DNA of 34,363 bases, taken from a virus. Under the pieces are notes generated by a model. That model worked only from the letters and a program-made list of their open reading frames with translations, did not search any database and was not told where the DNA came from. Below are positions 2,112 to 32,438 of this stretch, in pieces. The stretch's first letter is position 1, and every line of letters starts with the position of its first letter. Location of the stretch: positions 1-34,363 of IMG/VR virus record IMGVR_UViG_3300010160_000132. One strand, 5' to 3'. The translations under genes were made by a program, and so were the position numbers.

Positions 2112-2119
2112 TATTTATA
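2112..2119 (-). promoter_or_regulatory. T4-late-type promoter box
   Basis: TATAAATA read on minus, identical to the T4 late -10 consensus, five bases before the ATG of the 141-aa gene. Confidence 0.65.
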
Positions 2120-3575: not shown

Positions 3576-6304
3576 TAGGCAAATCCTGTTACTAGGCTGG
3601 CATAGTAGGTTGTGCCTATGTAACTGATAGTCAACATGTCTATGGCGTTGGCCGCTGTGCTCAGTGTTTTAAATCCGCCAGCAAACTTCATAGTGCTGGT
3701 CAATGTGTAGGGTCCACCACTAGCTGGTTGTGTGATAATCAGAGTTAAACTCTGTCCCGTTACTGGACTTGCTAATGCGTTCAGTGTAATGCTACCTGTT
3801 AGGGTAATGGTCTGCACGTTACCGTTGGCCACGTTTGGTGTTATAGTGCCGGTTGTGGCACCTGCGGCATATATGGTGTCACGTAGTTCTTTGGGTGTAA
3901 ACGCACCTGCGCCGCTCAGTGTTGCCGCAACCGTTGTGCCACCGTACCATAAGAACTGTTGACCGGTAGTTGCTACACTGCTCCACATCGTACCACTTTC
4001 AATACCAATTGCATAGTCAACTGCGGCAGCACCCACTTGTGGATATAATACAAGTTTTGTGCCGGCACTGCGAGTAGTAAATGCCGGAGCCGCAACTCCG
4101 CTGGCCACAAAGTCAATACGAGCATTAGTGGCATTGCTGAGGTATATGGTTCCACCGCCGTCTGCTGTAGTAGATTGAAAAGTTGTTGTAAATCTGTTAC
4201 TAGCACTGATAGTAGTAAACGCACCAGTGCTTGCTGTTGTAGCACCAACGCTCATGTTGTTAATAGTACCAGCAGTAGTTGGTCCAATAGTTACTGTACC
4301 AGAACCTGTTGGGCTTAGTGTAACAGCACTGGTACTGGCTGAGTTAACTGTCAGTATGGTAAACGCACCAGTGTTAGGTGATGTGCTACCAATAGCCGGT
4401 GGACTTGCTAAACTTAGTGTACCGCCCAGTGTTATGTTGCCCGAACCGGTAACTGTACCAGACAAGCTAAGACCACTTACGGTACCAGTGCCAGTTACTG
4501 AAGTTACTGTACCACCAGTAGCACCCGAAACTGCGGCAAATGCAAACGATGATCCGTTCCATGTCAAATATGTTCCTGCTGTTACAGGTGCTACAACAAA
4601 TCCGCTGGTATCAATACCAGTTTGTACGTGAAGTCTGTTGGCAGCGCCGCCTGCTAAGTTTGTTGCTGTAGTGGCTGATGCTACTGTACCCCATGCAATA
4701 CCACCCGCTGTGGTATATTTTAAATAGGTTCCGTCTGCAGGGGCGGCAACAAATGCTGTGGTATCTAGGGCAGATTGATAGGGCAATCTATTGGCTGCGC
4801 CACCTAATAAGTTAGTGGCAGCACCCGCTGTAGTTGCACTAGTTGCAGAAACTGCGGCGCCCGCTGTTAAACTGCTGGCTGTACCTGAAAAGTTTGTTCC
4901 TACAAATGTCGGACTAGCACCTGATGCCACATTTTGATTTAGTGTACGACTAGCACCTGATATAGTCAGTGTAAATGTTCCGTTATTAACACCGGTACCC
5001 CCGTATGTTGGGCTGATAATATCAGCATTCCATGTGCCAGTGCCAACAGTGCCAACAGTGGTCAAACTTGATGACCCTGCTAGGGGGCTTGCCCCGATTG
5101 AGTTGTAACTAAGCGTAATTGGAACTGAACCGTTAAATGTTGACCCAGATACAGCACCCGAACCACTGTTATCAATAGTTAATACACTGTTAACTGTACC
5201 AGAACTTGATCCAATTGGAATTTTGACCCATTTAACACCGTCATAAATTACGTTATCGCCAACGGCAAATGACACGTTACCTGCGCCAAAGTTAACAGTA
5301 CCTGCTGCCGTACAAACAAATTCAAAACCGTTGGTGTTATAAGCACTGGATGCATTGTTCAACGTTGGGGTATTTGTTGCCGCTGACCAACCGCCCTGGA
5401 ACACAATGGCTCCTGTAATGTTAGCGGCAATAACACCTGAACCGTTAATAGTAATGGTAACACCGTCGACTTTGACCCCACCTAACTGAGTAGTAGTTGC
5501 TGTGGCTAAACGAATAGAACCTGAGGTATTTACTAGTCCTGAGCTAACTGTTGCTGGAATAGTTACTCCGCCAAGTTGTGATGTAGTAGCAGTAGCTAGG
5601 CCAATAGTGCCACTTGAGTTAGTAATACCGCTAGTAGCCACAGCTGGAATAATTACTCCACCTTTTACAGTTGTAGTTGCTGTGGGTAATACATATTGAT
5701 TAGCACCGCTAATAACACCAGTTAATGAGTTGATAAGGATTGTAGTTCCGTCCACTTTGACGCCGCCCAATGCACTGGTTGTTGCTATAGGTAATGTGTA
5801 TTGATTGCTTCCGCTAATAACTCCAGTAACAGGATTGATAGTAATACTGGTGCCGTCTGGTCGAACTCCGCCGATTACACTGGTTGTTGCTATAGGTAAT
5901 GTGTATTGATTGCTTCCGCTAATAACTCCAGTAACAGGATTGATAGTAATACTGGTGCCGTCTACTTTAACGCCACCTTTAACAGTTGTTGATGCAGTGG
6001 GTAATGAATAAATTGGTATTGCAGAAATAGCTGAATTTACATCTGTTGTAAGTGCATACGGTGCTAGGTCTACAGTTTTAGCGTATGGTGCTAATGCCGA
6101 TGTTAAATTTGATGCTAAGTTAACAGTAGTAATAGCATTGGTTTGAACATACTGCTGGGTGGCAATTTTAAAACCACCAGGAGTTGAACCATCCATTAAT
6201 CGGATAGTTTTATTAGTTGTGTCGTTAACTAAAACACCGTTGGAATAACTTAATCTGTCTAAATCAGTTGCGTCATATCCCGGTAATCTTACTTGATTGC
6301 TCAT
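3575..6304 (-). CDS. Repeat-rich tail fibre protein (909 aa)
   Basis: A large beta-rich protein low in Cys and rich in Thr, Ser, Gly, Ala and Val, typical of phage fibres. The N-terminus (MSNQVRLPGYDATDLDRLSY) may attach to the baseplate. Residues about 95-300 hold tandem units of roughly 35 residues with the pattern TTSxxGGVKVDGTSITI-NPVTGVIS; two are nearly identical in DNA. Later parts have TGTVTSVTGTGTVSGLSLSG-type repeats, and the C-terminal 100 residues form a module with TITLTGSITL and YIGTTYYASLVTGF. It should be a trimeric fibre shaft. Two late-type promoter boxes precede it and AAGGATG gives the ribosome site. Repeats suggest it can change length by recombination. Confidence 0.8.
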   Translation of the reverse strand: MSNQVRLPGYDATDLDRLSYSNGVLVNDTTNKTIRLMDGSTPGGFKIATQQYVQTNAITTVNLASNLTSALAPYAKTVDLAPYALTTDVNSAISAIPIYSLPTASTTVKGGVKVDGTSITINPVTGVISGSNQYTLPIATTSVIGGVRPDGTSITINPVTGVISGSNQYTLPIATTSALGGVKVDGTTILINSLTGVISGANQYVLPTATTTVKGGVIIPAVATSGITNSSGTIGLATATTSQLGGVTIPATVSSGLVNTSGSIRLATATTTQLGGVKVDGVTITINGSGVIAANITGAIVFQGGWSAATNTPTLNNASSAYNTNGFEFVCTAAGTVNFGAGNVSFAVGDNVIYDGVKWVKIPIGSSSGTVNSVLTIDNSGSGAVSGSTFNGSVPITLSYNSIGASPLAGSSSLTTVGTVGTGTWNADIISPTYGGTGVNNGTFTLTISGASRTLNQNVASGASPTFVGTNFSGTASSLTAGAAVSATSATTAGAATNLLGGAANRLPYQSALDTTAFVAAPADGTYLKYTTAGGIAWGTVASATTATNLAGGAANRLHVQTGIDTSGFVVAPVTAGTYLTWNGSSFAFAAVSGATGGTVTSVTGTGTVSGLSLSGTVTGSGNITLGGTLSLASPPAIGSTSPNTGAFTILTVNSASTSAVTLSPTGSGTVTIGPTTAGTINNMSVGATTASTGAFTTISASNRFTTTFQSTTADGGGTIYLSNATNARIDFVASGVAAPAFTTRSAGTKLVLYPQVGAAAVDYAIGIESGTMWSSVATTGQQFLWYGGTTVAATLSGAGAFTPKELRDTIYAAGATTGTITPNVANGNVQTITLTGSITLNALASPVTGQSLTLIITQPASGGPYTLTSTMKFAGGFKTLSTAANAIDMLTISYIGTTYYASLVTGFA
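5773..5963 (-). repeat. Perfect 86-bp tandem repeat in the fibre gene
   Basis: Bases 5773-5858 recur exactly at 5878-5963, a period of 105 bp or 35 codons, with a 19-base divergent segment between the copies. It codes two adjacent fibre-shaft units. Other units in the gene share the protein pattern but have drifted, so this pair is a recent duplication or was homogenised. Confidence 0.9.
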
Positions 6305-6326: not shown

Positions 6327-6334
6327 GTATTTAT
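6327..6334 (-). promoter_or_regulatory. Late-type promoter box for the tail fibre gene
   Basis: ATAAATAC on minus, 22 bases before the ATG at 6304. A transcript from it would carry a short leader with AAGGATG as ribosome site. Confidence 0.65.
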
Positions 6335-19196: not shown

Positions 19197-20786
19197 TTAA
19201 TATTTTGCTAGTTCTTTAATACGAGCCAACGGATCTACGCTTTCTTCTTCCTCTTCTTCTGGGTCAGTCAGTTGGTCTCCAGCGGCTGCACCAGTTAGTG
19301 CGCCCAGTGGGCCACCTAACGCGGCACCTGCTACTCCGCCTGCTATTGTCCCAAGGATACCTTCATTTCCGGGTGCGGCTATAGTCTTAGTACTTAATTT
19401 TTCAACTACGTAGTGAGCAAACTGTCCGGCTTGTTCACCAAACTTCTTCTCACAGGCAATCTTAACACCTTCTTCACCACGTGGGAATGTACCGGTCTGA
19501 CTGTCATACATTGATTGAATAAACTCAACTACTTCTTTAGGAATAGCTTGTTTAGCTAGATGTCTTGCACGGCTTTGTCCAGTATGTACTGCACCACTTT
19601 TATCTTTTACATCACCGGAATCTTTTGAGTACGGGCCATCAAATGGCGGCTCTTCTTCAGAATCTTTTTGGTGATCTAACTCGCCTAACTCATCAATTTG
19701 AGTTTCAAAATCTTGGAACATGCTGTGCTCTTTTACATCTTCTTCATCATCACATTCACATGGATCTTTGTGGCATACTGAGCATTCGACTTCTTCAGCA
19801 ACTAGATCTTCATAACCTAACTCGCCTTCACGTTTTTCACTTACTAGTTTATAAATGTATGGGAATACACCTTTTAGTTCTTCGTTGAATGTACGAATAG
19901 TTAGGGCATCTACCCAACTGTTGATCATATCTTCTGGAACTACTTGTGCTTCTGTTGGAGCAAATGATTCACGGAAACTTTCATAATGAGCTTGCTTTTG
20001 TAGGCTAGCGACTTCGTGTTTAACTGCTTCAATGCGTTCCATAACACGCTCGCTAATATCACCCATAGCTTCTGCCATAACGCCACTACGTTGTGTATAG
20101 TTTTTAAACTGACGAAGTTTGCTTAGTTCTTCGCTTAGTCCACTAATATGATTGCCAATGCCGTCATATGGATTGCCGCCGTTAGCCACGTGAACAGCCA
20201 TTGCACGAGCACCATTCAAATGCTTTGCAGGATAACGGAAACGTTCGCCTGTTGAGCTTTCAATGTAGATGCTTTCGATACGCTGTGTACGACCAGCTGG
20301 GTTTGCATAGTTAACAGGTGCGCTGTGCTTGACAATAATCTTTGCTTCGCCCACATCTTGGTAACTAGTCTTACTTGTACCAAATAGTTTTGATTCACTC
20401 ATTTTTTCTTCTCCGTTCCTTTGTGCTAGATAAGCATAATCTCTTTTTTCTAAGTTTGATTTAGCAATATCGCGTGTGTCAAACTTTAGTAAATTCTTTC
20501 TTGCAAATTGTCTTAACTCTTTTAAAAAGTCAAACCATTCATCTTTAACTTCATCAGTATGTGCATCTAGCATAGATTCATCATAGATAACAGTTAGTGC
20601 ATCGTCGTCTATTTGCAAGTTAATACGACCTAATTCATCGCCTTGTACTTTATAACTTACATCAAAGAATCTAGCTGTCTCTGGGTCTGTGGTTAATGTA
20701 CCATCCTCGGCACCCATTTTTACATTAGAGAAGCGGCTACGTACTTTGTTAAAAAGGTCAGTCGATATTGTAGTTAAGTCTTTCAT
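19197..20786 (-). CDS. Hypothetical late protein with Cys cluster and glycine zipper (529 aa)
   Basis: The frame is open further upstream, but the ATG at 20786 (MKDLTTISTDLF) follows a late-type box and is preferred. The N-terminal 270 residues look globular; residues 335-345 carry C-x2-C-x4-C-x-C (CSVCHKDPCEC), a possible metal site, followed by a long acidic stretch. Residues about 472-502 (ILGTIAGGVAGAALGG and on) form a glycine zipper able to insert in or associate with membranes, followed by EEEEEE. The order gp17, this gene, gp32, and the late box suggest a virion or assembly protein. The function is unknown. Confidence 0.65.
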   Translation of the reverse strand: MKDLTTISTDLFNKVRSRFSNVKMGAEDGTLTTDPETARFFDVSYKVQGDELGRINLQIDDDALTVIYDESMLDAHTDEVKDEWFDFLKELRQFARKNLLKFDTRDIAKSNLEKRDYAYLAQRNGEEKMSESKLFGTSKTSYQDVGEAKIIVKHSAPVNYANPAGRTQRIESIYIESSTGERFRYPAKHLNGARAMAVHVANGGNPYDGIGNHISGLSEELSKLRQFKNYTQRSGVMAEAMGDISERVMERIEAVKHEVASLQKQAHYESFRESFAPTEAQVVPEDMINSWVDALTIRTFNEELKGVFPYIYKLVSEKREGELGYEDLVAEEVECSVCHKDPCECDDEEDVKEHSMFQDFETQIDELGELDHQKDSEEEPPFDGPYSKDSGDVKDKSGAVHTGQSRARHLAKQAIPKEVVEFIQSMYDSQTGTFPRGEEGVKIACEKKFGEQAGQFAHYVVEKLSTKTIAAPGNEGILGTIAGGVAGAALGGPLGALTGAAAGDQLTDPEEEEEESVDPLARIKELAKY

Positions 20787-20790
20787 AGTT

Positions 20791-20798
20791 GTATTTAT
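20791..20798 (-). promoter_or_regulatory. Late-type box four bases before an ATG
   Basis: ATAAATAC on minus; four bases separate it from the ATG of the 529-aa gene at 20786. It overlaps the first base of the terminase stop codon. Confidence 0.65.
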
Positions 20799-22393
20799 TA
20801 GAAACTGCTGGAAACGAATATAGGCATAGGCGGTTCCCAATCTTCAAAGTTTTCATCTAAACTGTTAGACATTACTTCAAAAACCCTAGTATCCCAGTCG
20901 GCTAAAACTGCGCTCATACGTACTGCTAGTAACATAGCACTAACTAAATCGTCAGTTTCTCCTACTTTTGCTTTAAACGTAATGCCATTAGCAATAAACG
21001 CTTTGAGCTCACTAATAAGCGGTCTACTGTTGATTTTCATCTTGTTTGTTTCAATAAGGTGTTTTAATCGACTACAAATTGCAATTTTACTGCGGTGTGT
21101 GGTATTAAATCCCTTGCGGAATTTACGTACATGTCCTTTACGTATAGGTTCTGAAGTAAATAATCCAGGTATGTTTTCTTCGCCCACATTCTTAACAACA
21201 ATAAGAGCGGCTTCACCTAGTGTGTTGTTTTCAACTGACCAATAGATATTAGAACCATTCATTTTTGGACAACATTCAGCAATGTACTTGTTAATGTCCA
21301 TAAGGATTTTAATCTGTCCTTCTACTGCGGTGGTATTATGTTGCCACTCTGCTACCTGTATCATTGACGGTAACTCTATGACTTGTATGGCCGCATAGTT
21401 GCCGCCGGTTCCTAATGCAGGGTCTAATGCCACGGCGTAAATCATATCATCAGTTGGTTTCTTATACCAACGTACTTGTCCCATTTTAAGGATAGGCTCT
21501 TTACCTTCCATTCCTGCGAGGCACAAACTATTAATCAGTGTTTCTTCATAAACTAAGAACTCGCATCCGTATTCTCGACGAAAACGTTCTTCACCAATGC
21601 GTCCTAATTCTACTTGTTTCCATGCATCGTCGCGATCTGGATGCTCATGCCATTCTGCACGGAATCCGTGAAACCCATTAACACCTAATGCTGTTTCATT
21701 TCCGTGTTCGTCAAATTTCTTTTGGCTTTCTTTCCAAATATTGGCAAATGTATCTTCGTCACTGTTAGGTGTGCTTGTAATAATAGCGCGGCCACCAGTT
21801 GCTAGTGTTGGCGATATGGAAGTCCAAAATTCTTCAGCAATGTTAGGTTGTACGAAAGCAAACTCATCGCAATATAGTAAGGATATGGACATACCACGAC
21901 CGGTGTTACCAGTAGTAGTAGCTGATACAATTCTTGATCCGTTGTCAAATTCAATACTCCCCTTGTTATAGTTTGTTACTCCGCATCTAATATGATCCGG
22001 ACAGTCTTCATATGCATAACGAATACGTTGCATAATTTCCTGTGCGCCTGTATATTTGTGTGCGGCAACAAGAACTGTTTGATCAGGATGAAACATAGCG
22101 TACCAAAGTAAGTAACCTGCCGCGCAGGTAGTTTTACCACTTTGTCGAGGCAACATGTTGATGTTGAAACGATGATCATGATAACTGTGTAATAATCTTA
22201 CTTGATAGTCATATGGATCAAACAGTAGTTTACCTTTTACCGGATGCTGAATATAGAAAAAGTTTTTTGCAAAATGAATGTAGCCAATTTCGGAGTCAGC
22301 GCAAAGCATCAGATCCTGAATGTGTTTTTCAGTGAACGTTTCTTGCCTATTGGCTTTTTTAATTAATACGCCATCTAATGATTTGCTTGCCAT
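20798..22393 (-). CDS. 17: Terminase large subunit (gp17-like)
   Basis: A 531-aa packaging motor with ATPase and nuclease. Walker A-type PRQSGKT (residues 82-88), Walker B SLLYCDE (171-177) with catalytic Glu 177, coupling motif STPN (207-210). The nuclease domain has the expected acidic triad in ALDPALGTGG (D324), SVENN (E388) and TDDLVSA (D481/D482). T4 gp17 has 610 aa. It translocates DNA into the prohead through the portal and cuts the concatemer. It has its own terminator-box-ATG junction upstream, where the late-like box GTTAAATA stands five bases before the ATG and no Shine-Dalgarno sequence is visible. Confidence 0.95.
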   Translation of the reverse strand: MASKSLDGVLIKKANRQETFTEKHIQDLMLCADSEIGYIHFAKNFFYIQHPVKGKLLFDPYDYQVRLLHSYHDHRFNINMLPRQSGKTTCAAGYLLWYAMFHPDQTVLVAAHKYTGAQEIMQRIRYAYEDCPDHIRCGVTNYNKGSIEFDNGSRIVSATTTGNTGRGMSISLLYCDEFAFVQPNIAEEFWTSISPTLATGGRAIITSTPNSDEDTFANIWKESQKKFDEHGNETALGVNGFHGFRAEWHEHPDRDDAWKQVELGRIGEERFRREYGCEFLVYEETLINSLCLAGMEGKEPILKMGQVRWYKKPTDDMIYAVALDPALGTGGNYAAIQVIELPSMIQVAEWQHNTTAVEGQIKILMDINKYIAECCPKMNGSNIYWSVENNTLGEAALIVVKNVGEENIPGLFTSEPIRKGHVRKFRKGFNTTHRSKIAICSRLKHLIETNKMKINSRPLISELKAFIANGITFKAKVGETDDLVSAMLLAVRMSAVLADWDTRVFEVMSNSLDENFEDWEPPMPIFVSSSF

Positions 22394-22398
22394 ATGAT

Positions 22399-22406
22399 TA
22401 TTTAAC
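22399..22406 (-). promoter_or_regulatory. Weak late-like box before gp17
   Basis: GTTAAATA on minus, five bases before the gp17 ATG and just after a strong terminator. It is one or two bases off the late consensus, but position and spacing match the other abutting boxes. Confidence 0.45.
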
Positions 22407-22435
22407 GAAAAAAATAGACCCCGGAGGGTCTATTT
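22405..22435 (-). terminator. Intrinsic terminator before gp17
   Basis: On minus: AAATAGACCC, loop TCCG, GGGTCTATTT (arms 22435-22426 and 22421-22412), then a continuous T run to 22408. It separates the upstream late genes from gp17. Confidence 0.9.
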
Positions 22436-22470
22436 GGCACCAATTATGCAAGGTGCTAACTGCCGACGAA

Positions 22471-23478
22471 TTACTCAGCACCCTTACCGCTGTAGTTTTT
22501 ACCAGCTGTGTGTTTAATGCCTGTTTTTGTCTTTTCAATAGTACCGCCTGTACTAGATTTCTTTTTCTCGCCTTGCTTCATTCCTGCTGTACCTTGTGCA
22601 TTTTTCTTTGCATCGTCAACAGTTGGAAAGCCTTCTTTAACTTTTTTATCAGCTACTGCTTTCTTAAAAGGTTCTTTCTTATTGCCATCTTTGTCCATAT
22701 CTAAGAAGTCTGGTTTAGCCTTTGCTTCTTTGATTGCTTTATAACGTGCGTCTAGTTGTTTACGGATGCTTTCCATTGGATTGCCACCGCCATTAACTTT
22801 CTTGGCCTCGTCGCCTTTGCTTGCTAGATCATCGCCTGTTGGGGTTACTGTGTTTACATCGCCATACTTTTCATTTGGTGCTGTAGTTGCATCGCCAAAG
22901 CCGCCATCTTGATTTTCATCGGCTAGTGTATCAGCCATGCCGCGAACTTCATCAGCTACTTTGTTCATTTCGTCTTTAGGAGCAGGATCTTTGCTACCTA
23001 CTGGAGATTTTTCGCCTGCTTCATCACCACCTTTTTCTGCGCCAGGACCTTCGTCACCTGCTGGTGCTTTAGGGGCCATTGCAATTCCTGCTTTCTTAAC
23101 TAGTGCATCTAATGGGTCCATTCCGCCTTCGGGTTCGCCACCAAAGCCCGGCTCATCTAAACTTAAAGCAGGCATATTCATTGGTGCAGGAGGAGCCATA
23201 GTTGGCATTGGAGCTTGTGGCATTAATGGAGAACCTACTGGTCCTGCTGCCAACGGGCTTTCTGCCTTGTGCATTAGATCTAACAAGCTCTTGATTTGAT
23301 CAATACCTTGTGCGTTTAAGTTAACACTCATAGATACTGGAGGAGCAGATGGAATGTTGCTCATTGTGTCTGGCATCATGCCACACTCTGCTAGAGTAGA
23401 TTCTGTTACTGGCTTTTTACCTTGATCTATATCTCTGATACGACCAAATAGTTTATTAAAGTCTAAATCTGATTTCAT
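22471..23478 (-). CDS. Low-complexity late protein with EF-hand-like loop (335 aa)
   Basis: Rich in Pro, Met, Ala, Gly and Lys (MPQAPMPTMAPPAPMNMP near 85-102), probably mostly disordered. One clear motif, FLDMDKDGNKKEPFKKA, has Asp at 260, 262 and 264, Gly 265 and Glu 269, the spacing of a calcium-binding DxDxDG loop; related segments occur in prohead-core or scaffold-like proteins of marine T4-like phages. AAGGAA precedes the ATG and the gene starts two bases after its neighbour. It lies between gp16 and gp17 genes, so a head-assembly role is likely but unproven. Confidence 0.65.
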   Translation of the reverse strand: MKSDLDFNKLFGRIRDIDQGKKPVTESTLAECGMMPDTMSNIPSAPPVSMSVNLNAQGIDQIKSLLDLMHKAESPLAAGPVGSPLMPQAPMPTMAPPAPMNMPALSLDEPGFGGEPEGGMDPLDALVKKAGIAMAPKAPAGDEGPGAEKGGDEAGEKSPVGSKDPAPKDEMNKVADEVRGMADTLADENQDGGFGDATTAPNEKYGDVNTVTPTGDDLASKGDEAKKVNGGGNPMESIRKQLDARYKAIKEAKAKPDFLDMDKDGNKKEPFKKAVADKKVKEGFPTVDDAKKNAQGTAGMKQGEKKKSSTGGTIEKTKTGIKHTAGKNYSGKGAE

Positions 23479-23479
23479 A

Positions 23480-24058
23480 TTATTTTCCTTTTACCGGTGA
23501 TGGTATTGTATTTTGTTTAGAACCCACCGGGCTAATACCTACACTAGCTTCGGGCATTGGAGATTCTTTTTCTTTAGGTTGTCCTGCACACAAATCTTTT
23601 GAATCTTTTGCAAGATCTTTTAAGAAACTACTAATGTGCTTTTCTCCCACTAGATTCTGTGCTGTCTTATCAACTTCAGATTCTTGTGGCTCTCCTAAAA
23701 CTGGAGTCATCTTTTCATTCATTTCTGCTTCATATTGTTCGCTTGGTTCATTAGCAGTTCTTACAACTACTTCACAACCGCAAACTTGTTTGATGTAAGC
23801 TTCTAATACTTGGGGAGTTGTTGGATAGTGACACTCTAAATCAAACACTGTTACATGCGAGTTCTTTAAATTTGGAAAGTCTAAAGGAACATCTTGAATA
23901 GGTGTACGTTTGCCCTTGCTTAGTTTAACAACGGCAAACTTTTCCATTGCTGAGTTTAATTCAGAAGAAAAATCTTCAGATAAGTCTCCTGCGACTTTGA
24001 TCTTAAATTCATAAGTCTTTTTGCTTTCTGTTAGATATTCTGTAAATGATTTCATCAT
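23480..24058 (-). CDS. Late hypothetical protein (192 aa)
   Basis: Start MMKSFTEYLTESKKTYEFKI at 24058; GGGGA stands five bases upstream and a late-type box 14 bases upstream. Residues 1-110 look like an alpha/beta domain (HVTVFDLECHYPTTPQVLEAYIKQ); the rest is polar and rich in Lys, Glu and Pro. The LTE near the N-terminus fits the [IL]-x-E cleavage rule of the T4 prohead protease, so it may be processed in the prohead. The function is unknown; context points to head assembly. Confidence 0.65.
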   Translation of the reverse strand: MMKSFTEYLTESKKTYEFKIKVAGDLSEDFSSELNSAMEKFAVVKLSKGKRTPIQDVPLDFPNLKNSHVTVFDLECHYPTTPQVLEAYIKQVCGCEVVVRTANEPSEQYEAEMNEKMTPVLGEPQESEVDKTAQNLVGEKHISSFLKDLAKDSKDLCAGQPKEKESPMPEASVGISPVGSKQNTIPSPVKGK

Positions 24059-24071
24059 GGTCCCCACTGTA

Positions 24072-24079
24072 GTATTTAT
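24072..24079 (-). promoter_or_regulatory. Late-type box
   Basis: ATAAATAC on minus, 13 bases before the ATG at 24058, overlapping the end of the gp16 gene (stop 24076-24078). Confidence 0.65.
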
Positions 24080-24579
24080 TTCATTTGCTTTAATTTTTCC
24101 AGCAGGCTATTACGGTCAGTTATTAGCATACCTTCACCAGCTATCATGCCTTCTTCGCCTTGTGGCTTAGAATCTTGGTCAAGTTTGGCTTTTTTAATCT
24201 GTAATTCAATCATTTTTAGCTTTTTATCAATTTTAGCTGACTTTGCATCAATGGCGTTTTTTAATGCAGACTGTGCTACCTCAAAAATCCTGCTAGAGTA
24301 ACGTGCTTCTACATTCATACCTAAATCCATTAGATCGTCGTAAGCATCAGTAGCACGTTGCGCTAGACTATCAAATTCTGCATCGCTAGCATCACCTAAT
24401 CCTTTTACACTAGGTAATGCTGTGGCAATTTTATCAATTTCTTCAATATCTCGAAAGAAATTATCTGCAGGCATTTTACTGCGAGCTTCTTCTATTTCAG
24501 CTCGACTTGCACTAGCGGATTTTTTAGCAATATCCTTACTTTCAGGAAGGTTTAGTAGTTCTTCAAGTTTCTTTGTCAT
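24076..24579 (-). CDS. 16: Terminase small subunit (gp16-like)
   Basis: A 167-aa helical protein. MTKKLEELLNLPE at the start, EEIDKIATALPSVKGL, YDDLMDLGMNVEARYSSRIFEVAQ and KIDKKLKMIELQIKKAKLDQ are the pattern of the T4-like DNA-packaging small subunit in marine phages; T4 gp16 has 164 aa. It forms a ring that recognises concatemer DNA and regulates gp17. It follows gp4. An ATAAGTAT box overlaps the gp4 stop and stands four bases before this ATG. Confidence 0.75.
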   Translation of the reverse strand: MTKKLEELLNLPESKDIAKKSASASRAEIEEARSKMPADNFFRDIEEIDKIATALPSVKGLGDASDAEFDSLAQRATDAYDDLMDLGMNVEARYSSRIFEVAQSALKNAIDAKSAKIDKKLKMIELQIKKAKLDQDSKPQGEEGMIAGEGMLITDRNSLLEKLKQMK

Positions 24580-24583
24580 ATGA

Positions 24584-24591
24584 ATACTTAT
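24584..24591 (-). promoter_or_regulatory. Variant late-like box before gp16
   Basis: ATAAGTAT on minus, one base off ATAAATAT, four bases before the gp16 ATG. The junction reads ATTCATATG, as at the 141-aa gene (2112-2104). Confidence 0.4.
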
Positions 24592-25022
24592 CGTTTGTCG
24601 TTATGAAAAATATCGTTTTCTGAGACAACTCTAAAGAATATGCCGGTTTGTTTGGCCCATGCTCTTGCGGCTTCCCATTTAGCCATATTTAATACTGCAT
24701 GGGCTTGACTGTGTTTGCTACGACCTGCTTCTTTAAGACTAGTTTGTTTTAAAGGTTTTACTTCAATAATCTCAGCATGAGCTTTGCCGTTTTTGTCAAC
24801 ATAGTTGATAAAGAAATCCGGGACATATACTGTTTGTTTACCGGTAAACGGATTACGATAGGGAATTTTAATTGCTTCGCTTGACCAATTTTGCACGGCA
24901 GGGTTGTTATCACAAAATTGCATGAAGGCCCATTCCCACGAGCTACGGTATGTTGGATTTTTATTTCCTATATACTTTGCTGGGTTTTTAGGTATAAACT
25001 TTCCCTGTACAAACTGCTTCAT
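24588..25022 (-). CDS. 4: Head completion protein gp4-like, PD-(D/E)xK fold
   Basis: A 144-aa protein with the gp4 signature: FVQGKFIPKNPAKYIGN, YRSSWEWAFMQFCDNNPAV and WSSEAIKIPY. It also shows nuclease-type residues, Glu 30, Asp 69 in VPDF and Glu 87-x-Lys 89 in EVK, the order of a PD-(D/E)xK active site as in TnsA-like enzymes. In T4 gp4 is needed to finish heads after packaging and may trim DNA ends. ATGA overlap with the gene upstream. Confidence 0.8.
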   Translation of the reverse strand: MKQFVQGKFIPKNPAKYIGNKNPTYRSSWEWAFMQFCDNNPAVQNWSSEAIKIPYRNPFTGKQTVYVPDFFINYVDKNGKAHAEIIEVKPLKQTSLKEAGRSKHSQAHAVLNMAKWEAARAWAKQTGIFFRVVSENDIFHNDKR

Positions 25023-25393
25023 ACTACAATATTTCTTTTCTCAAGTAAATCAGTTGTATCGGGTCTCTTATATCCTAGTGTGGATATTTTTTGTCTATTA
25101 TAGTTGAGAACTTGTGCAATCACTGCTGATATCTTAATTTCTTCTAATTTACCTAAAGTATCTAATAAAGTAAAAACATTAACATTATCTATCTTAGCTT
25201 GTTGTAATAGAATAATTGCAGTTGAATTACTAGCTAGGTCGTCAAAGCCGCGTTTCTGAAAAAATCCAACTACGGCATCTATCTCTGCGGCTGGGAAGAC
25301 AACTGGCTCAATAAAATACATGTCAAAGAAATGTTTGACTTCATCGCTAGAGTCTGCGTTAATAATATTTAAGGGTAGATTAGACGTTGCCAT
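25019..25393 (-). CDS. Late hypothetical protein (124 aa)
   Basis: A helical 124-aa protein (FFDMYFIEPVVFPAAEIDAVVGFF, STAIILLQQAKIDNVNVFTLLDTLGKLEEI, VLNYNRQKISTLGYKRP). It lies between the tail tube initiator-like gene and gp4 with overlaps on both sides, which suggests a neck, tail or virion-assembly protein conserved in this group. I cannot assign a T4 number. AGGTGA before the ATG is a reasonable ribosome site. Confidence 0.65.
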   Translation of the reverse strand: MATSNLPLNIINADSSDEVKHFFDMYFIEPVVFPAAEIDAVVGFFQKRGFDDLASNSTAIILLQQAKIDNVNVFTLLDTLGKLEEIKISAVIAQVLNYNRQKISTLGYKRPDTTDLLEKRNIVV

Positions 25394-26843
25394 TTATCAC
25401 CTGTGATTTAATTAATTGATATTGACTTTGCACCTCCGGTGCTCCGTTAATTACTTTTTCCAATGTTGTAGCTTTATATTGTGCTTGGGCCGATGCACTT
25501 AATGCGTTCCACCTAGTGTTTATTTCAGTAAGGTTTCCGGCACCAATGGCCTTGCCAAACACTGCTGTCCTAGCTAATGAATCTAAAGATCCAGGTCGAG
25601 CATCAAAGAATGACTTTACTTTAGCCGCAGGTAATGGTCCTAGACCTTGTGTTATTTGTGTTTGATTTGCCGCAGTAAAATCTCCTTGACCTGTACCACC
25701 AGTCTTTGGAAATAACACATTAGCAACTCCGCTAACGTTCACCCCGGTTGCAGAACTCAGTGCGCCAGTTAATAAATTAAACCCTTCTTGACGTATGCCT
25801 TCCGATGTTAATTTTTTAGAATTATTAACTACTGCCGCACCTTTAATTAATGTACCTAGCAATGCTCCTGCACTACTAAATGCTGATCCACTCGAAATAG
25901 CTCCAACAATATCAACTGCTCCGCCTAGAATACCGCCTTGGCCAAATAAGCCAACTTTGCCGCCGCCTAATAATGATAATGGGCTAGGTGATTTATCATA
26001 AAATTCTTTTGCAAATCCATCAGGGTTGCCAGTACTAACCTGACCTTGTCCGTAAATCACAGCTTCATACATAATGCTCATTTTATTTGCAGATGTATCT
26101 GATCCGTTACTATTATCCATATTATCATGTTGCCAACCAGTTATAATAGGGTTAACTAATGTATAACTTTGATACTGTTGTTTACTCAATTGAAATATTT
26201 GTATGGTACTAAAGAACGGAACTGATTGATCTCTATCAAGTCCGTATCTATAAGGATTGAATCCTTGAGTGTTATCCAAACGACTGTAGCCAGGTGGCAC
26301 AGCTGAAGAACTTGATCCAGACGTATCTGATGCACTACCAAATAATTTTGTTATTCCTGGAACTACAGTATTAGCCAATGTTGAGAAAAATCCTGTTGCT
26401 CCTGCTCCACCTGCACCCCCAGCAGAACTATTATGACTAGAGTCAGCAAAATAATACCCGTAGTATAGACTCCATAATGCTGTAGTGACGCCAAGGTTAT
26501 CATCGTGAAATGCAATATTAATTGGCTCGTATTCTAATTTTGTTTGTGTTGCTCGTTTTCTATTGTATTGTTGTGCAACATCTACTTGAATTTTAAATTT
26601 AGGTAAGTCAATTGATTTAACTAATAATCCAACAGTTCGTTGATGTTGTTCTTTAAAGTTAGTACCAGCTAACGGCACATCATTAAAGTTAAAAACCACA
26701 TGATATAGAAATTTTGTTTTAGGTGCAAGTCTAAACGCACTAGTATTATATAATCTAGCCGCATGTGCAAAATCGCCAAGGTTACCCTTTGGGTGGCCAA
26801 GGCCGTTACCTAAATTATCTAAAAAGCCGTCTAATATACTCAT
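25380..26843 (-). CDS. Tail tube initiator / baseplate-tube junction protein (gp54-like)
   Basis: A 487-aa protein whose first 150 residues (TKFLYHVVFNFNDVP, VGLLVKSIDLPKFKI, YNRKRATQTKLEYEPINIAFHDDN, LWSLYYGYYFAD) have the tail-tube-like fold pattern of gp19-related tube-initiating proteins (T4 gp48/gp54). The remainder is Gly/Ser/Ala-rich with hydrophobic, low-complexity parts (GLFGQGGILGGAVDIVGAIS). It is longer than T4 gp54 (320 aa). The gene follows gp19 after a terminator; a late-type box stands four bases before the ATG and there is no Shine-Dalgarno sequence. The assignment to gp54 rather than gp48 is uncertain. Confidence 0.6.
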   Translation of the reverse strand: MSILDGFLDNLGNGLGHPKGNLGDFAHAARLYNTSAFRLAPKTKFLYHVVFNFNDVPLAGTNFKEQHQRTVGLLVKSIDLPKFKIQVDVAQQYNRKRATQTKLEYEPINIAFHDDNLGVTTALWSLYYGYYFADSSHNSSAGGAGGAGATGFFSTLANTVVPGITKLFGSASDTSGSSSSAVPPGYSRLDNTQGFNPYRYGLDRDQSVPFFSTIQIFQLSKQQYQSYTLVNPIITGWQHDNMDNSNGSDTSANKMSIMYEAVIYGQGQVSTGNPDGFAKEFYDKSPSPLSLLGGGKVGLFGQGGILGGAVDIVGAISSGSAFSSAGALLGTLIKGAAVVNNSKKLTSEGIRQEGFNLLTGALSSATGVNVSGVANVLFPKTGGTGQGDFTAANQTQITQGLGPLPAAKVKSFFDARPGSLDSLARTAVFGKAIGAGNLTEINTRWNALSASAQAQYKATTLEKVINGAPEVQSQYQLIKSQVINGNV

Positions 26844-26847
26844 AGTA

Positions 26848-26855
26848 ATATTTAT
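26848..26855 (-). promoter_or_regulatory. Late-type box four bases before an ATG
   Basis: ATAAATAT on minus, four bases before the ATG at 26843, following the gp19 terminator by 27 bases. Confidence 0.65.
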
Positions 26856-26881
26856 CGATTAGAATAAAGTGGAGAGATAAT

Positions 26882-26907
26882 AAAAAAGGACACCAAAGTG
26901 TCCTTTT
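26882..26907 (-). terminator. Intrinsic terminator after gp19
   Basis: On minus: AAAAGGACAC, loop TTTG, GTGTCCTTTT (arms 26907-26898 and 26893-26884), T run to 26882. Confidence 0.9.
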
Positions 26908-26930
26908 AGAGCTCCCGGAATCAGTAGGGT

Positions 26931-27554
26931 TTAAGCACCGCCAGTTACGAATGTGCCTAAGCTACGTCCGACTGCTGTTCCAATACCTGTTCCTACTGGG
27001 CTTTGGATAGCATTATCATAACGAATAGCCAACTGGATAGTTACTGGTTCGTTATTTGCGTATGCTAGAGTTTGATAGTTTGCGTTCTTTACATAGCAAC
27101 CATAAATTTCCCATGTTTCAAGAACGTTAGCTGTGTTAGCACCGTTACCACCGTCTAGAATTTCAATTCTAGTTGTGAATTTGTAATCGATACCAGAAGC
27201 CGCAGAACTTTGCTCATAGAAGTCAAATTGTTTCTGTAGTTGTTCGCCAACAAGTTTCTGCACTTGACCTGTAACGTCATCACGTAAGTTAATAGTGATG
27301 TCGTTCCATGTGTGCTTGCCTGCTAGACGTACTGTTGAGTTATAAACATGAATATCTACATCAGCAAAATCCAATGTTGGTCTTGTGATGTCGACAACTT
27401 GTTTTGTCAACTCAGTTGTTGGTGTTGATACGCCAAAGTTTTCTAGTGATACTCTAAAACGATATTGCAGTTTAGGCATCAACAAGCCTTGAGTGCTTGC
27501 TGATTGATCACTTACTAAGGGTACTGTTAGTTTGCTTAATGTTGAAATAGACAT
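26931..27554 (-). CDS. 19: Tail tube protein (gp19-like)
   Basis: A 207-aa protein forming stacked hexameric rings of the inner tail tube. LLMPKLQYRFRVSLENFG, KQVVDITRPTLDF and HTWNDITINLRDDVTG are the marks of T4-like tube proteins; C-terminal NYQTLAYANNEPVTIQLAIRYDNA is the usual end strand region. T4 gp19 has 163 aa. AGGGAG lies seven bases before the ATG and a late-type box before that; a strong terminator follows. The product is needed in high copy, which fits its own promoter and terminator. Confidence 0.92.
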   Translation of the reverse strand: MSISTLSKLTVPLVSDQSASTQGLLMPKLQYRFRVSLENFGVSTPTTELTKQVVDITRPTLDFADVDIHVYNSTVRLAGKHTWNDITINLRDDVTGQVQKLVGEQLQKQFDFYEQSSAASGIDYKFTTRIEILDGGNGANTANVLETWEIYGCYVKNANYQTLAYANNEPVTIQLAIRYDNAIQSPVGTGIGTAVGRSLGTFVTGGA

Positions 27555-27572
27555 TTGTTGTCTCCCTTATTT

Positions 27573-27580
27573 GTATTTAT
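27573..27580 (-). promoter_or_regulatory. Late-type box for gp19
   Basis: ATAAATAC on minus, 18 bases before the ATG at 27554, sharing a base with the gp18 stop codon (27580-27582). Confidence 0.75.
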
Positions 27581-30489
27581 TATTTGCCTAACCCTGCAAT
27601 CTCACCAGTGTTCTTCAAACGCACTGGAATGTAAATAAATTCCACTGCTTTTACTGGTTCAATAGCAATGTCTACGTGTAGTTCGCTACGATCAATTCTG
27701 TTAGGTGTATTGTTACTTTCGTCACAAACAACTAGGTAATCGTATAGAGCACGTTGACCAACTAGTTCTAGCAATAGGCTTTCAACCTGTTGTTTGATTT
27801 CGTCACGTGTAATCTTATCGTTAGGTTCAAAGATATAAGGTTTAGCCAACTTGTTCAACTGATTACGTAGGAAAATTACCAAACGTGCTACGTTGATACG
27901 ATCTAAAGCACTTGCACCTTTAGCACGAGTCTTTTGACCAAAGTTAACTAGACCTGCACCTGTAAAGTATGTAATTGGATTAACTTTTACATTATACAAT
28001 GTGTCACGCTGTCCGTCATTTAGTGCAACTGATTTGAACTCGCCTTCTGCTGTAACATAACCAACTGCTGTTGCGTTTGTAACATTACCACGACGTGTTC
28101 CTGCTGGAGCAAACCATGGATAAGCAACTTGGTCGTTTAGAGCAATAGTTCTTAAGATCATGTGGCTTGGAGGAACTGCGATATTCTTTCCAAAGTTATC
28201 ACTTGTGTAACCCCATGGATAGAATACACCTAAATATTCATCAAAGCTAACTAGACCATCATCGTTATCTTCTAATGCACCCATTAAGTTAGTGCCCCAG
28301 TTGTTTAAGTTAGTAGCACTTGGCTCTAATCTAGCTGGAGTATCACCAACAACAAATGCTGTTAGTCCACGATCGTAGTTTAGGTTAACTAGTTCGCCAA
28401 TTAGCTCAGGATATCCTGGGCAAGCTAACAGGTTAAAGCTATTACGTTCATTGTCACGAATTTCTTCGTTATTATTAACCGTGTGTTGTAGACTCTGGAT
28501 AATAACTTTACGCTGTGCATGACGACCAAATGAACCGCTGCCGTCTGTTTGATTTGCACTTTCTGTTACCCAACGATCAGCAAAGTAATCAGTCATTGTT
28601 TCGCCGTCGCCAGCGCCAAAGCGTCTGTTAATTGCTGTTTGATCAATGTAGTTACGAACATAACGCTTGACATTAAATCCGCTACGACGAGTATTCCATA
28701 GCAACATACCTTCTGGATATAGTGCAGGATCTGGACAATCAAAATCAACAAAGTCGCTTTCTAATAATGCTGTAATTGATGCTGGCATGTCAAGATCGCC
28801 GGCGGTTGACCAACGTGCGTCAGCAAACACAATACCGTTTTCTGTTGTTTGATCAGTTACATCAATTAGATCCCAACGCTTGAAGCTGTTGTTCCAACGC
28901 TTTAACAATGGATAGTGTTCTAGATCACTAGTATCAACCCATAGATCAAGATCGGATGGATCAGCTGGAGATGTTGGGCTAACTGTTGGACCGTCTGCAT
29001 TAGTGTCTTCTGTTGGAACATAATTTAAATAACCAACCCAATCTGTACCATTGTTGATCATGATATCAACTTCGTCTACTACAGAGCTATACCATAATTT
29101 GCCATCTGCTGTTTTAGTAGTTGGCGCAGTATCGCTAATGAAGTACATGATACCAACTGGTATGTTACTCCATGATGTAGTTGTATCTCTATATTTTACT
29201 ACGAAATATGCTTCTGGAGTATCATCATACTGTACATATACTGTGTTAACTTTAATGCCTGAACCTGTATAATTACGGTTAGCATCAGAAGTAGGATCTC
29301 CTGCAGGATTTATTAGAGTATAGTTTAGTGGATCAAGAGCCTTGTTTGCCACTTGATCATTGGCATACACTGGAGCAGTTAATTGTTCCCATAAACGTGT
29401 TGCACTGTTATAGACCTTAACACGCCATCTTGCACCAGCATTTGGCTCAGTAGTTTTGATCCATACAGAACCTGTTGGACGATTATCTAAAGAAGCCTTA
29501 TATTGTGGAACTTGTGTATGCTTGCTGATCTGTAGTTTAGGTGCCATGTATTCTTGGGCTATAATACCAAGTGCTCCTAGTAGATTGCCCCCACCAGATT
29601 GACTAATTGTTAAACTGTCACGACTTGCACTAACTGTAAAGATTTCTAATTTGCCTGCGGAATTTTTTCTAGCACCAAATGGGCCATCTTGATTATTAAT
29701 ATCAGTAACTAGACCGTCTACTGTAGTACCAGATGTTGCAAAAGGTGGTGCGCCTGATATTGTTAATGTTGTTGTTGGTAGGCCAGTTGTTGTTCCGCTG
29801 GTTTGACTGATTGTAGGCCATGCTCTTACCCACTGGTCTGATCCAATAACTACCCATGCGCCGTTGCCTTCTGGAGGTATACCGTTTGCATCGTATGCGC
29901 TCTTGTAGTAAATTTCAACATATTCATCGTCTAAGGCCAGTCCATATGAGCCTGCGGCTGCGTTATTATCGAGTATGTCTAGATATACTGTTGGAACTTG
30001 GTTGGTAAATGACTGGCCGCCAGCTGTTGCTGAACGTCCGTCCCATTGGAAAATACCGTAGGTTGAGCTTGCAGTATCTAGCCAGAAAGTACCATCTTCT
30101 GGTTCTCCGCCTGGGGCTTGTGCTCGTGCTTCTAGTTCGTTTAGGTCAATATCTGCACGAACAACTAGTGCAGAGTTACTTATTCCTAAGAATGAATATG
30201 CGGCTTGCAGGCCGTATTCGTTTAGTTCACCAGCATGAATTGGATTGTTGTTTGTATCTTTCTTGAATACTGGATCGCCAAATGTCTCAGCGAGTTCACG
30301 CTGACTTGTAATTGTATATACTGTGCCTGTTTTCGAAGCTGTAGTTCCTAATGCTGTTCCCGATCCTGATGATGGGACCTTGTTCGCACCTGTCGCCACA
30401 ACAAATAGTGGACGGGTGCCTGGTTCAGCGGTTGTGTAAAAACTTTCGTCGATTACAGAAACCTGTACGCCTGGTGATATTAAAGCCAT
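27580..30489 (-). CDS. 18: Tail sheath protein (gp18-like), enlarged
   Basis: A 969-aa contractile sheath protein; T4 gp18 has 659. The N-terminus MALISPGVQVSVIDESF and the C-terminal third (RTIALNDQVAYPWFAPAGTRRG, NVARLVIFLRNQLNKLAKPYIFEPND, then strands ending in EFIYIPVRLKN) are conserved sheath parts. The extra length lies in the middle, residues about 130-560, with repeated Trp-containing units: GTFWLDTASSTYGIFQWDG, GSVWIKTTEP, DGKLWYSSVV and DLDLWVDTSDLEHYPLLKRW. These probably form surface domains on the sheath. AAGGAG precedes the ATG; the leader holds a late-like CTAAATAT. Confidence 0.92.
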   Translation of the reverse strand: MALISPGVQVSVIDESFYTTAEPGTRPLFVVATGANKVPSSGSGTALGTTASKTGTVYTITSQRELAETFGDPVFKKDTNNNPIHAGELNEYGLQAAYSFLGISNSALVVRADIDLNELEARAQAPGGEPEDGTFWLDTASSTYGIFQWDGRSATAGGQSFTNQVPTVYLDILDNNAAAGSYGLALDDEYVEIYYKSAYDANGIPPEGNGAWVVIGSDQWVRAWPTISQTSGTTTGLPTTTLTISGAPPFATSGTTVDGLVTDINNQDGPFGARKNSAGKLEIFTVSASRDSLTISQSGGGNLLGALGIIAQEYMAPKLQISKHTQVPQYKASLDNRPTGSVWIKTTEPNAGARWRVKVYNSATRLWEQLTAPVYANDQVANKALDPLNYTLINPAGDPTSDANRNYTGSGIKVNTVYVQYDDTPEAYFVVKYRDTTTSWSNIPVGIMYFISDTAPTTKTADGKLWYSSVVDEVDIMINNGTDWVGYLNYVPTEDTNADGPTVSPTSPADPSDLDLWVDTSDLEHYPLLKRWNNSFKRWDLIDVTDQTTENGIVFADARWSTAGDLDMPASITALLESDFVDFDCPDPALYPEGMLLWNTRRSGFNVKRYVRNYIDQTAINRRFGAGDGETMTDYFADRWVTESANQTDGSGSFGRHAQRKVIIQSLQHTVNNNEEIRDNERNSFNLLACPGYPELIGELVNLNYDRGLTAFVVGDTPARLEPSATNLNNWGTNLMGALEDNDDGLVSFDEYLGVFYPWGYTSDNFGKNIAVPPSHMILRTIALNDQVAYPWFAPAGTRRGNVTNATAVGYVTAEGEFKSVALNDGQRDTLYNVKVNPITYFTGAGLVNFGQKTRAKGASALDRINVARLVIFLRNQLNKLAKPYIFEPNDKITRDEIKQQVESLLLELVGQRALYDYLVVCDESNNTPNRIDRSELHVDIAIEPVKAVEFIYIPVRLKNTGEIAGLGK

Positions 30490-30513
30490 TTTATGGTCTC
30501 CTTCTTACTGTTA

Positions 30514-30521
30514 ATATTTAG
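30514..30521 (-). promoter_or_regulatory. Late-like box for gp18
   Basis: CTAAATAT on minus, 24 bases before the sheath ATG, one or two bases off consensus. AAGGAGA lies between it and the ATG. Confidence 0.5.
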
Positions 30522-30579
30522 CAGGTATTTGGTAAAACAGCTACTTATAAGTCAGAGAAAAGGGCAGAAAAAGGGCTAG

Positions 30580-30587
30580 TATAAATA
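30580..30587 (+). promoter_or_regulatory. Consensus late-type box on plus
   Basis: TATAAATA, four bases before the ATG of the HNH-like gene at 30592, with no Shine-Dalgarno sequence between. It diverges from the sheath promoter. Confidence 0.65.
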
Positions 30588-30591
30588 TAAG

Positions 30592-30927
30592 ATGCGACCA
30601 CTATGTAATATATGCAAAGAACGGCCTTGTGCAGTCAACTACTATAAGGATAAGAAACCTTTTTATAGGCGCAAGTGTGACGGATGTGCTAGAGGCACTA
30701 CACCTAGCCAACCTCGGTGGTTTCAATTAGGCTATCGTAAGAAAGATGCCTGTGAGAAATGCGGATATAAGAGCCGACACTCTGAGCAGTTCAATGTATT
30801 TCACATAGACGGCGATCTTAACAACTGCCGTCCTGCAAACCTTAAGACAGTGTGTGCAAACTGTCAGCGAGTCCTACATAAAGAGGGCGTTCGTTGGCGT
30901 CAAGGTGATTTGGTACCAGATTTCTAA
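30592..30927 (+). CDS. HNH-like zinc-ribbon protein (111 aa)
   Basis: A Cys-rich 111-aa protein. Cysteine pairs C5/C8, C29/C32, C54/C57 and C88/C91 suggest structural zinc sites. FHIDGDLNNCRPANLKTVCANCQRV-L-H has the H-x-D, N and H order (H71, N83, H96) of the HNH nuclease motif. Such proteins cut or nick DNA, as homing endonucleases or in packaging. It stands alone on plus between gp18 and the kinase. The last 86 bases overlap the convergent kinase gene. Confidence 0.7.
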   Translation: MRPLCNICKERPCAVNYYKDKKPFYRRKCDGCARGTTPSQPRWFQLGYRKKDACEKCGYKSRHSEQFNVFHIDGDLNNCRPANLKTVCANCQRVLHKEGVRWRQGDLVPDF

Positions 30928-32430: not shown

Positions 32431-32438
32431 GTATTTAG
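32431..32438 (-). promoter_or_regulatory. Late-like box for the neck gene
   Basis: CTAAATAC on minus, 15 bases before the ATG at 32415, following the stop of the 30-aa ORF. Confidence 0.5.

Follow-up and report, generated by a model that had tools for sequence, protein, structure and literature searches.

Late promoter boxes abutting start codons predict leaderless virion and packaging messages in giant T4-like phages

T4 late promoters, leaderless mRNAs and the window

T4 late genes are textbook cases of late messages with Shine-Dalgarno (SD) leaders, and leaderless mRNAs in phages usually belong to single genes. The T4 late promoter is an 8-bp box of the TATAAATA type, without a -35 element and upstream of virion genes, which is numbered T(-13)A(-12) (PMC2988020) and in which gp55 contacts A(-12), A(-9) and A(-8) (PMC7892883). 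Bacterial leaderless mRNAs of the lambda cI type, reviewed in PMC4611024, carry a 5'-terminal AUG and no SD sequence. The two appear to be joined in the uncultured IMG/VR contig IMGVR_UViG_3300010160_000132, of which positions 1 to 34,363, a fragment of 34.4 kb, form the window analysed here. In this window, T4-type late boxes stand 4–5 bases before the start codons of several virion and packaging genes, and the late mRNAs of such selected genes very probably begin at the AUG itself, leaderless, or no more than three bases away from it. We denote by k the number of bases between late box and start codon; the short-gap class has k = 4–5, with variants up to 8. The arrangement is shared by a large group of giant T4-like phages, most of them uncultured, and is kept over about 160 contigs.

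The boxes described here resemble those of T4 in type, in the lack of a -35 element, in their location upstream of virion genes and in the presence of a gp55 homologue in relatives of the window. They differ in their consensus, GATAAATA, and in position, as the boxes of T4 and of cyanophage S-RSM4 lie further upstream of their genes. With bacterial leaderless mRNAs they share the missing SD and, by prediction, a terminal start codon, but those are isolated genes, whereas a conserved, gene-specific class within one phage late regulon, with predicted 5' ends, is found here. Pseudomonas phage PA5oct (Arenbergviridae), the nearest cultured phage by gp17, has T4-type late boxes, a gp55 homologue and three genes at k = 5; however, the arrangement does not extend through the PA5oct genome as a class (two TAAATA genes at k = 4–5 versus 17–27 in long relatives of the window), and its gp17 is without it. 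In huge phages encoding translation factors, S1-domain genes have been linked to missing SD sequences (PMC7162821). The relatives studied here likewise encode IF1, bS21 and many tRNAs, but the passages of that paper considered here describe no abutment of promoter and start codon, in which respect the present arrangement is distinct. Searches of the open-access literature turned up no description of leaderless late genes for T4-type phages, an absence that is no proof. The arrangement described here combines, in a new way, the T4 late promoter with a predicted leaderless mRNA, both of them known on their own.

According to its PHROGs matches, the window is a fragment of a T4-superfamily myovirus with nearly all genes on the minus strand; the matches include gp41, gp61, part of gp43, a helicase, UvsY, UvsX, gp32, gp17, gp16, a head-closure protein, tail tube proteins including gp19, gp18, a dNMP kinase and a head-tail adaptor. 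Among named phages PA5oct has the closest gp17 (55% identity), and many IMG/VR contigs carry a gp17 that is 72–98% identical to that of the window. Since some of these contigs exceed 300 kb, the window belongs to a jumbo-phage lineage. Megablast found no phage record matching the window, and no host emerged when gp17 was sought in bacterial genome contigs.

Distances from box to start codon and the genes concerned

A first-pass annotation of the window had listed six genes with a late box 4–5 bases before the ATG, and all six were confirmed, five with a gap of 5 bases and one, at 30592, with a gap of 4 (Table 1). When a seventh box in front of a GTG at 24067 is included, TAARTA occurs at k = 4–5 at 7 of the 32 curated window starts. 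When the 32 upstream sequences were shuffled 3000 times with dinucleotides preserved, such sites averaged 0.19 per shuffle and never exceeded 3. A shuffled control and a tally of distances across relatives had both been proposed with the annotation, and both are clearly positive. For the tally, set A comprised 80 related loci plus the window (81 loci, 1.06 Mb), and set B comprised 80 further loci (L127–L206) reached from the PA5oct gp17, with gp17 proteins about 55–69% identical to that of the window. The unique TAAATA-to-ATG sites in set A number 2, 1, 0, 1, 36, 124, 3, 5, 1, 0, 1, 1 and 1 for k = 0 to 12, a spike at k = 5 that is followed by a broad second distance class at 16–27 bases. TAARTA sites in set B are most frequent at k = 5 (94), followed by k = 7 (43), k = 4 (17), k = 6 (16) and k = 8 (8); the secondary peak at k = 7 possibly represents a subgroup with leaders of 1–3 bases. 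The pooled distances are bimodal, with 441 sites at k = 4–8, only 11 in total at 9–13 (0–4 per base) and a second class at 16–35 bases, which carries SD sites.

In three long relatives of 330, 354 and 358 kb, TAAATA stands at k = 4–5 before 17, 21 and 27 genes, respectively, against averages of 2.0–2.6 for letter-permuted (anagram) boxes in the same genomes; the high-scoring permutations are probably the same box displaced by one base. About one third of the gene-linked late boxes in whole relative genomes abut the start codon. The arrangement is a consistent feature of genome organization rather than a product of chance.

Which genes carry the short gap is also consistent. Across the 81 loci, gp17 has k = 4–5 in 71, with most of the remaining loci at k = 6 or 7. 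The same gap is found in 56 of 59 loci for the tail-tube-like 25380 family (k = 5), in 49 of 57 for the virion 19197 family, in 34 of 63 for gp16 and in all 25 loci of the 111-aa HNH-like family (k = 5 in 9, k = 4 in 16). By contrast, gp19 and gp18 are never at k = 4–5 and are leadered in 36 of 55 and 23 of 52 loci, respectively, and none of the gp32, UvsX, UvsY, dNMP kinase, gp4-like and 22471 families is at k = 4–5 in this tally. The box thus stands upstream of virion and packaging genes and not of replication genes, and the short-gap genes of relative G003 include baseplate wedge, tail tube, tail fibre-like and virion proteins. The plus-strand open reading frame at 30592 is probably real, because its family is at k = 4 or 5 in all its loci and its G003 homologue, to which the window protein was aligned by eye, matches HNH endonucleases.

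The best reading of these data is, with high probability, a late regulon split into predicted leaderless mRNAs and SD-leadered mRNAs. The first-pass annotation had proposed two such classes, with normal leaders at gp19, gp18, 24058 and 6304. The bimodal distances and the clear SD sites at gp19 and gp18 bear this out, while the SD sites at 6304 and at the adaptor gene (32415) are weaker and the gene at 24058 also has a box 5 bases before GTG 24067. The start of this virion gene (from 23480) is ambiguous, being either the GTG, whose G is the predicted +1, or ATG 24058/24055, which is preceded by GGGG; most relatives of the family have an SD leader. The TATTCATATG junction common to 2106 and 24579, in which the annotation saw a hint of selection, is real, but the exact string is not a conserved element. 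The shared ATTCATATG junction was dropped as a special element: what is conserved in the wider set is only the box with its preceding G/A, T(-4) and T(-1).

Table 1. Late boxes and terminator-like hairpins in the window (positions on the given strand)
Feature	Position	Strand	Context
Late box TATAAATA (exact)	2112..2119	-	TATAAATA-TTCAT-ATG, 5 bases to ATG 2106; 141-aa protein 1681-2106, no PHROGs match
Late box AATAAATA	20792..20799	-	AATAAATA-CAACT-ATG, 5 bases to ATG 20786; virion structural protein 19197-20786
Late box GTTAAATA	22399..22406	-	GTTAAATA-ATCAT-ATG, 5 bases to ATG 22393; gp17 terminase large subunit 20798-22393
Late box GATAAGTA	24585..24592	-	GATAAGTA-TTCAT-ATG, 5 bases to ATG 24579; gp16-like small terminase 24076-24579
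Late box GATAAATA	26849..26856	-	GATAAATA-TTACT-ATG, 5 bases to ATG 26843; tail-tube-like protein 25380-26843
Late box TATAAATA (exact)	30580..30587	+	TATAAATA-TAAG-ATG, 4 bases to ATG 30592; 111-aa HNH-endonuclease-like protein 30592-30927
Seventh late box AATAAATA	24073..24080	-	5 bases to GTG 24067, or 14-17 to ATG 24058/24055; virion structural protein 23480-24067
Leadered box core TAAATA	27574..27579	-	Gap 19, SD AGGGAG; gp19 (27554)
Leadered box core TAAATA	30515..30520	-	Gap 25, SD AAGGAG; gp18 (30489)
Leadered box core TAAATA	6328..6333	-	Gap 23; gene start 6304
Leadered box core TAAATA	32432..32437	-	Gap 16, AAAGAG-like site; head-tail adaptor Ad2-like gene (32415)
Intrinsic-terminator-like hairpin and T run (agaccctccggggtctattttttt)	22408..22431	-	Directly upstream of gp17 box
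Intrinsic-terminator-like hairpin and T run (ggacactttggtgtcctttttt)	26882..26903	-	Upstream of 26843 box

Signals at the start codon and competing explanations

The T4 numbering and the gp55 contacts fit TATAAATA at positions -13 to -6, which places +1 six bases past the box and, with a gap of five bases, on the A of the ATG. A pyrimidine directly before a +1 A is the usual initiator pattern, and a pyrimidine is found at -1 in 97% (set A) and 91% (set B) of the k = 4–8 genes, compared with 46–66% in other gene classes. SD-like motifs are present in only 9% and 1% of these genes, respectively, the SD position being taken up by the box. Intrinsic-terminator-like hairpins lie within 100 bases upstream of 44% of the set A genes versus 0–6% in other classes, and of 15% versus 4–9% in set B; in the window they are seen at gp17 and 26843. 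In the profile of 165 non-redundant sites, which had been selected by their TAARTA core but not by the flanking G/A, G/A-TAAATA is conserved. No -35 element is seen, the information content between -40 and -25 staying at or below 0.07 bits per base, and the box is the sole conserved promoter element, as in a T4-type late promoter. A phage-encoded gp55-like late sigma factor (phrog_234) is found in the five long relatives G001, G002, G003, G006 and G011. Genes of the predicted leaderless class start with ATG in 304 cases and GTG in 7, which is weak evidence for leaderless mRNAs because ATG also predominates among leadered late genes (190 to 1). An A-rich coding start was set aside as a leaderless signature, given the small difference in A content over nucleotides 4–18 (0.45 versus 0.39–0.41).

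Hence, we hypothesize that the late genes are driven by a T4-type promoter with a GATAAATA/TATAAATA box and no -35 element, which would be recognized by host RNA polymerase carrying a gp55-like late sigma factor. With the box at -13 to -6, followed by five bases ending in a pyrimidine, the A of the ATG would be +1 and the mRNA would begin 5'-AUG, with 1–3 extra bases preceding the AUG in the k = 6–8 variants. As no SD pairing would be available, translation would proceed via the leaderless route, and a terminator just upstream would often halt read-through and make the gene dependent on its own leaderless message. At gp18 and gp19 the same box, 16–35 bases upstream and combined with an SD, would yield the second translational class of the same late regulon. 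The leaderless late mRNAs predicted in the first-pass annotation are thus supported by the k = 5 spike, the T4 numbering, the pyrimidine-A initiator, the absent SD, the upstream terminators, gene specificity and conservation.

Several points weigh against this proposal. The +1 position, and with it the 5' end at the AUG, is carried over from T4 and combined with the initiator signature, and k = 4 requires initiation one base earlier than the T4 numbering gives. An initiator of comparable sharpness is missing from the leadered class. No gp55 homologue (phrog_234) was found in G004, G005 and the 202-kb G012, which are incomplete contigs, or in the window, itself a fragment. The gp45 sliding clamp model PF02916 matched T4 only and neither the relatives nor PA5oct, although the model is possibly insensitive. 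Finally, the proposal presupposes that the host can translate leaderless mRNAs.

An alternative is that TAAATA near the ATG is a translation signal, such as an A/U-rich, SD-independent ribosome or S1 element, and that transcripts start further upstream. Some bacteria use A-rich upstream elements instead of an SD, and the SD is indeed absent from short-gap genes. However, the extended box GATAAATA is also found 16–35 bases upstream of SD-bearing genes and is missing from replication genes, the -1 pyrimidine and the fixed 5-base gap match a transcription initiator, terminators often lie between the upstream gene and the box, and box and late sigma factor match the T4 system, which leaves this explanation quite improbable. 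It has also been considered that the boxes are promoters but that a downstream in-frame codon with an SD is the true start, giving an ordinary leader. This is plausible for 23480-24067, where ATG 24058/24055 follows GGGG and most relatives are SD-leadered. In the gp17, gp16, 20786 and 26843 families, however, codon-position periodicity is present in codons 2–12 after the box-adjacent ATG (third-position mismatch 0.18–0.51 versus 0.00–0.07 at the second); since it starts at codon 2, coding begins at this ATG. Moreover, a downstream start would not hold an ATG at +1 with a -1 pyrimidine over the 165 sites, and the annotated PA5oct starts at 84079 and 144985 are box-adjacent ATGs, so that downstream starts are a very improbable general account. 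That AT-rich, short intergenic gaps in compact genomes place TATA-like boxes near ATGs by chance has practically no probability, as the shuffles, the anagram controls and the neighbouring distances are all against it, the distance tally refutes it, and the class is absent from PA5oct, RaK2 and T4, which are equally or more AT-rich.

Distribution among phages and translation components

In a quick gp17 tree of 102 rows, whose long branches make the deepest joins unsure, the short-gap state requires 9 changes versus 22.4 with shuffled labels. It is concentrated in one group of 92 rows (77 of 92), with PA5oct inside this group as an apparent loss at gp17. A short gap at gp17 is absent from T4, S-RSM4, phiM7, RaK2, Serratia phage BF, Vibrio phage 2.275.O, Phosso and Atu_ph07. 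Whole-genome tallies of TAAATA at k = 4–5 gave none in T4 and S-RSM4, one in RaK2 and two in PA5oct, or three with TAAGTA. The PA5oct instances, at k = 5, are the head maturation protease gp331 (annotated start 84079), the structural protein gp262 (144985) and gp213, and the products of gp331 and gp262 were detected by mass spectrometry according to the record.

If the proposed leaderless late messages are real, leaderless translation would be a regular part of the lytic programme for a conserved virion gene set in a broad clade of uncultured jumbo phages, with a T4-type sigma system apparently set so that +1 and start codon coincide. Dozens of natural paired comparisons would then be available, with the same promoter with and without a leader, and gene callers that rely on SD sites may put the starts of genes in these genomes at the wrong codon. 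Cultured PA5oct makes the arrangement testable at two genes.

It is conceivable, though unlikely, that the split of the late regulon is deliberate, with phage IF1, bS21 and initiator-type tRNA-Met biasing initiation and a late shift in ribosome state favouring leaderless virion and packaging messages, an idea based on co-occurrence in related genomes. IF1 (PF01176) is found in all four long genomes with the class (G002, G003, G011 and G012; L310–L313, >200 kb). Of 14 named phages without the class, only Phosso (W02, L314) encodes IF1; PA5oct lacks it as well. The link is suggestive, but the four genomes are related and do not count as independent cases. bS21 is encoded by the same four genomes and by PA5oct, and IF3_C was found in none of nine records.

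Initiator-like tRNA-Met genes with a C1:A72 mismatch and a GG:CC anticodon stem are present in G003, G011 and PA5oct (L097:8519-8593 (-), L283:16060-16134 (-) and L247:10167-10243 (+)). A gp55-like match in Phosso (W02:222719-223072 (+)) belongs to an open frame of 602 aa and itself contains one TAA, compared with frames of 281–300 aa in the clade and its neighbours. In the window, TAAATA-CTGT-ATG (9675) opens a 17-aa frame at 9685-9625 (-), in another frame over the start of the 277-aa gene 9646, whose G003 homologue has an 8-base gap from the box to its own ATG. G003 (L083, L097 and L099) further encodes 27 tRNAs, together with a tmRNA whose tag is VAVNDNNFALAA.

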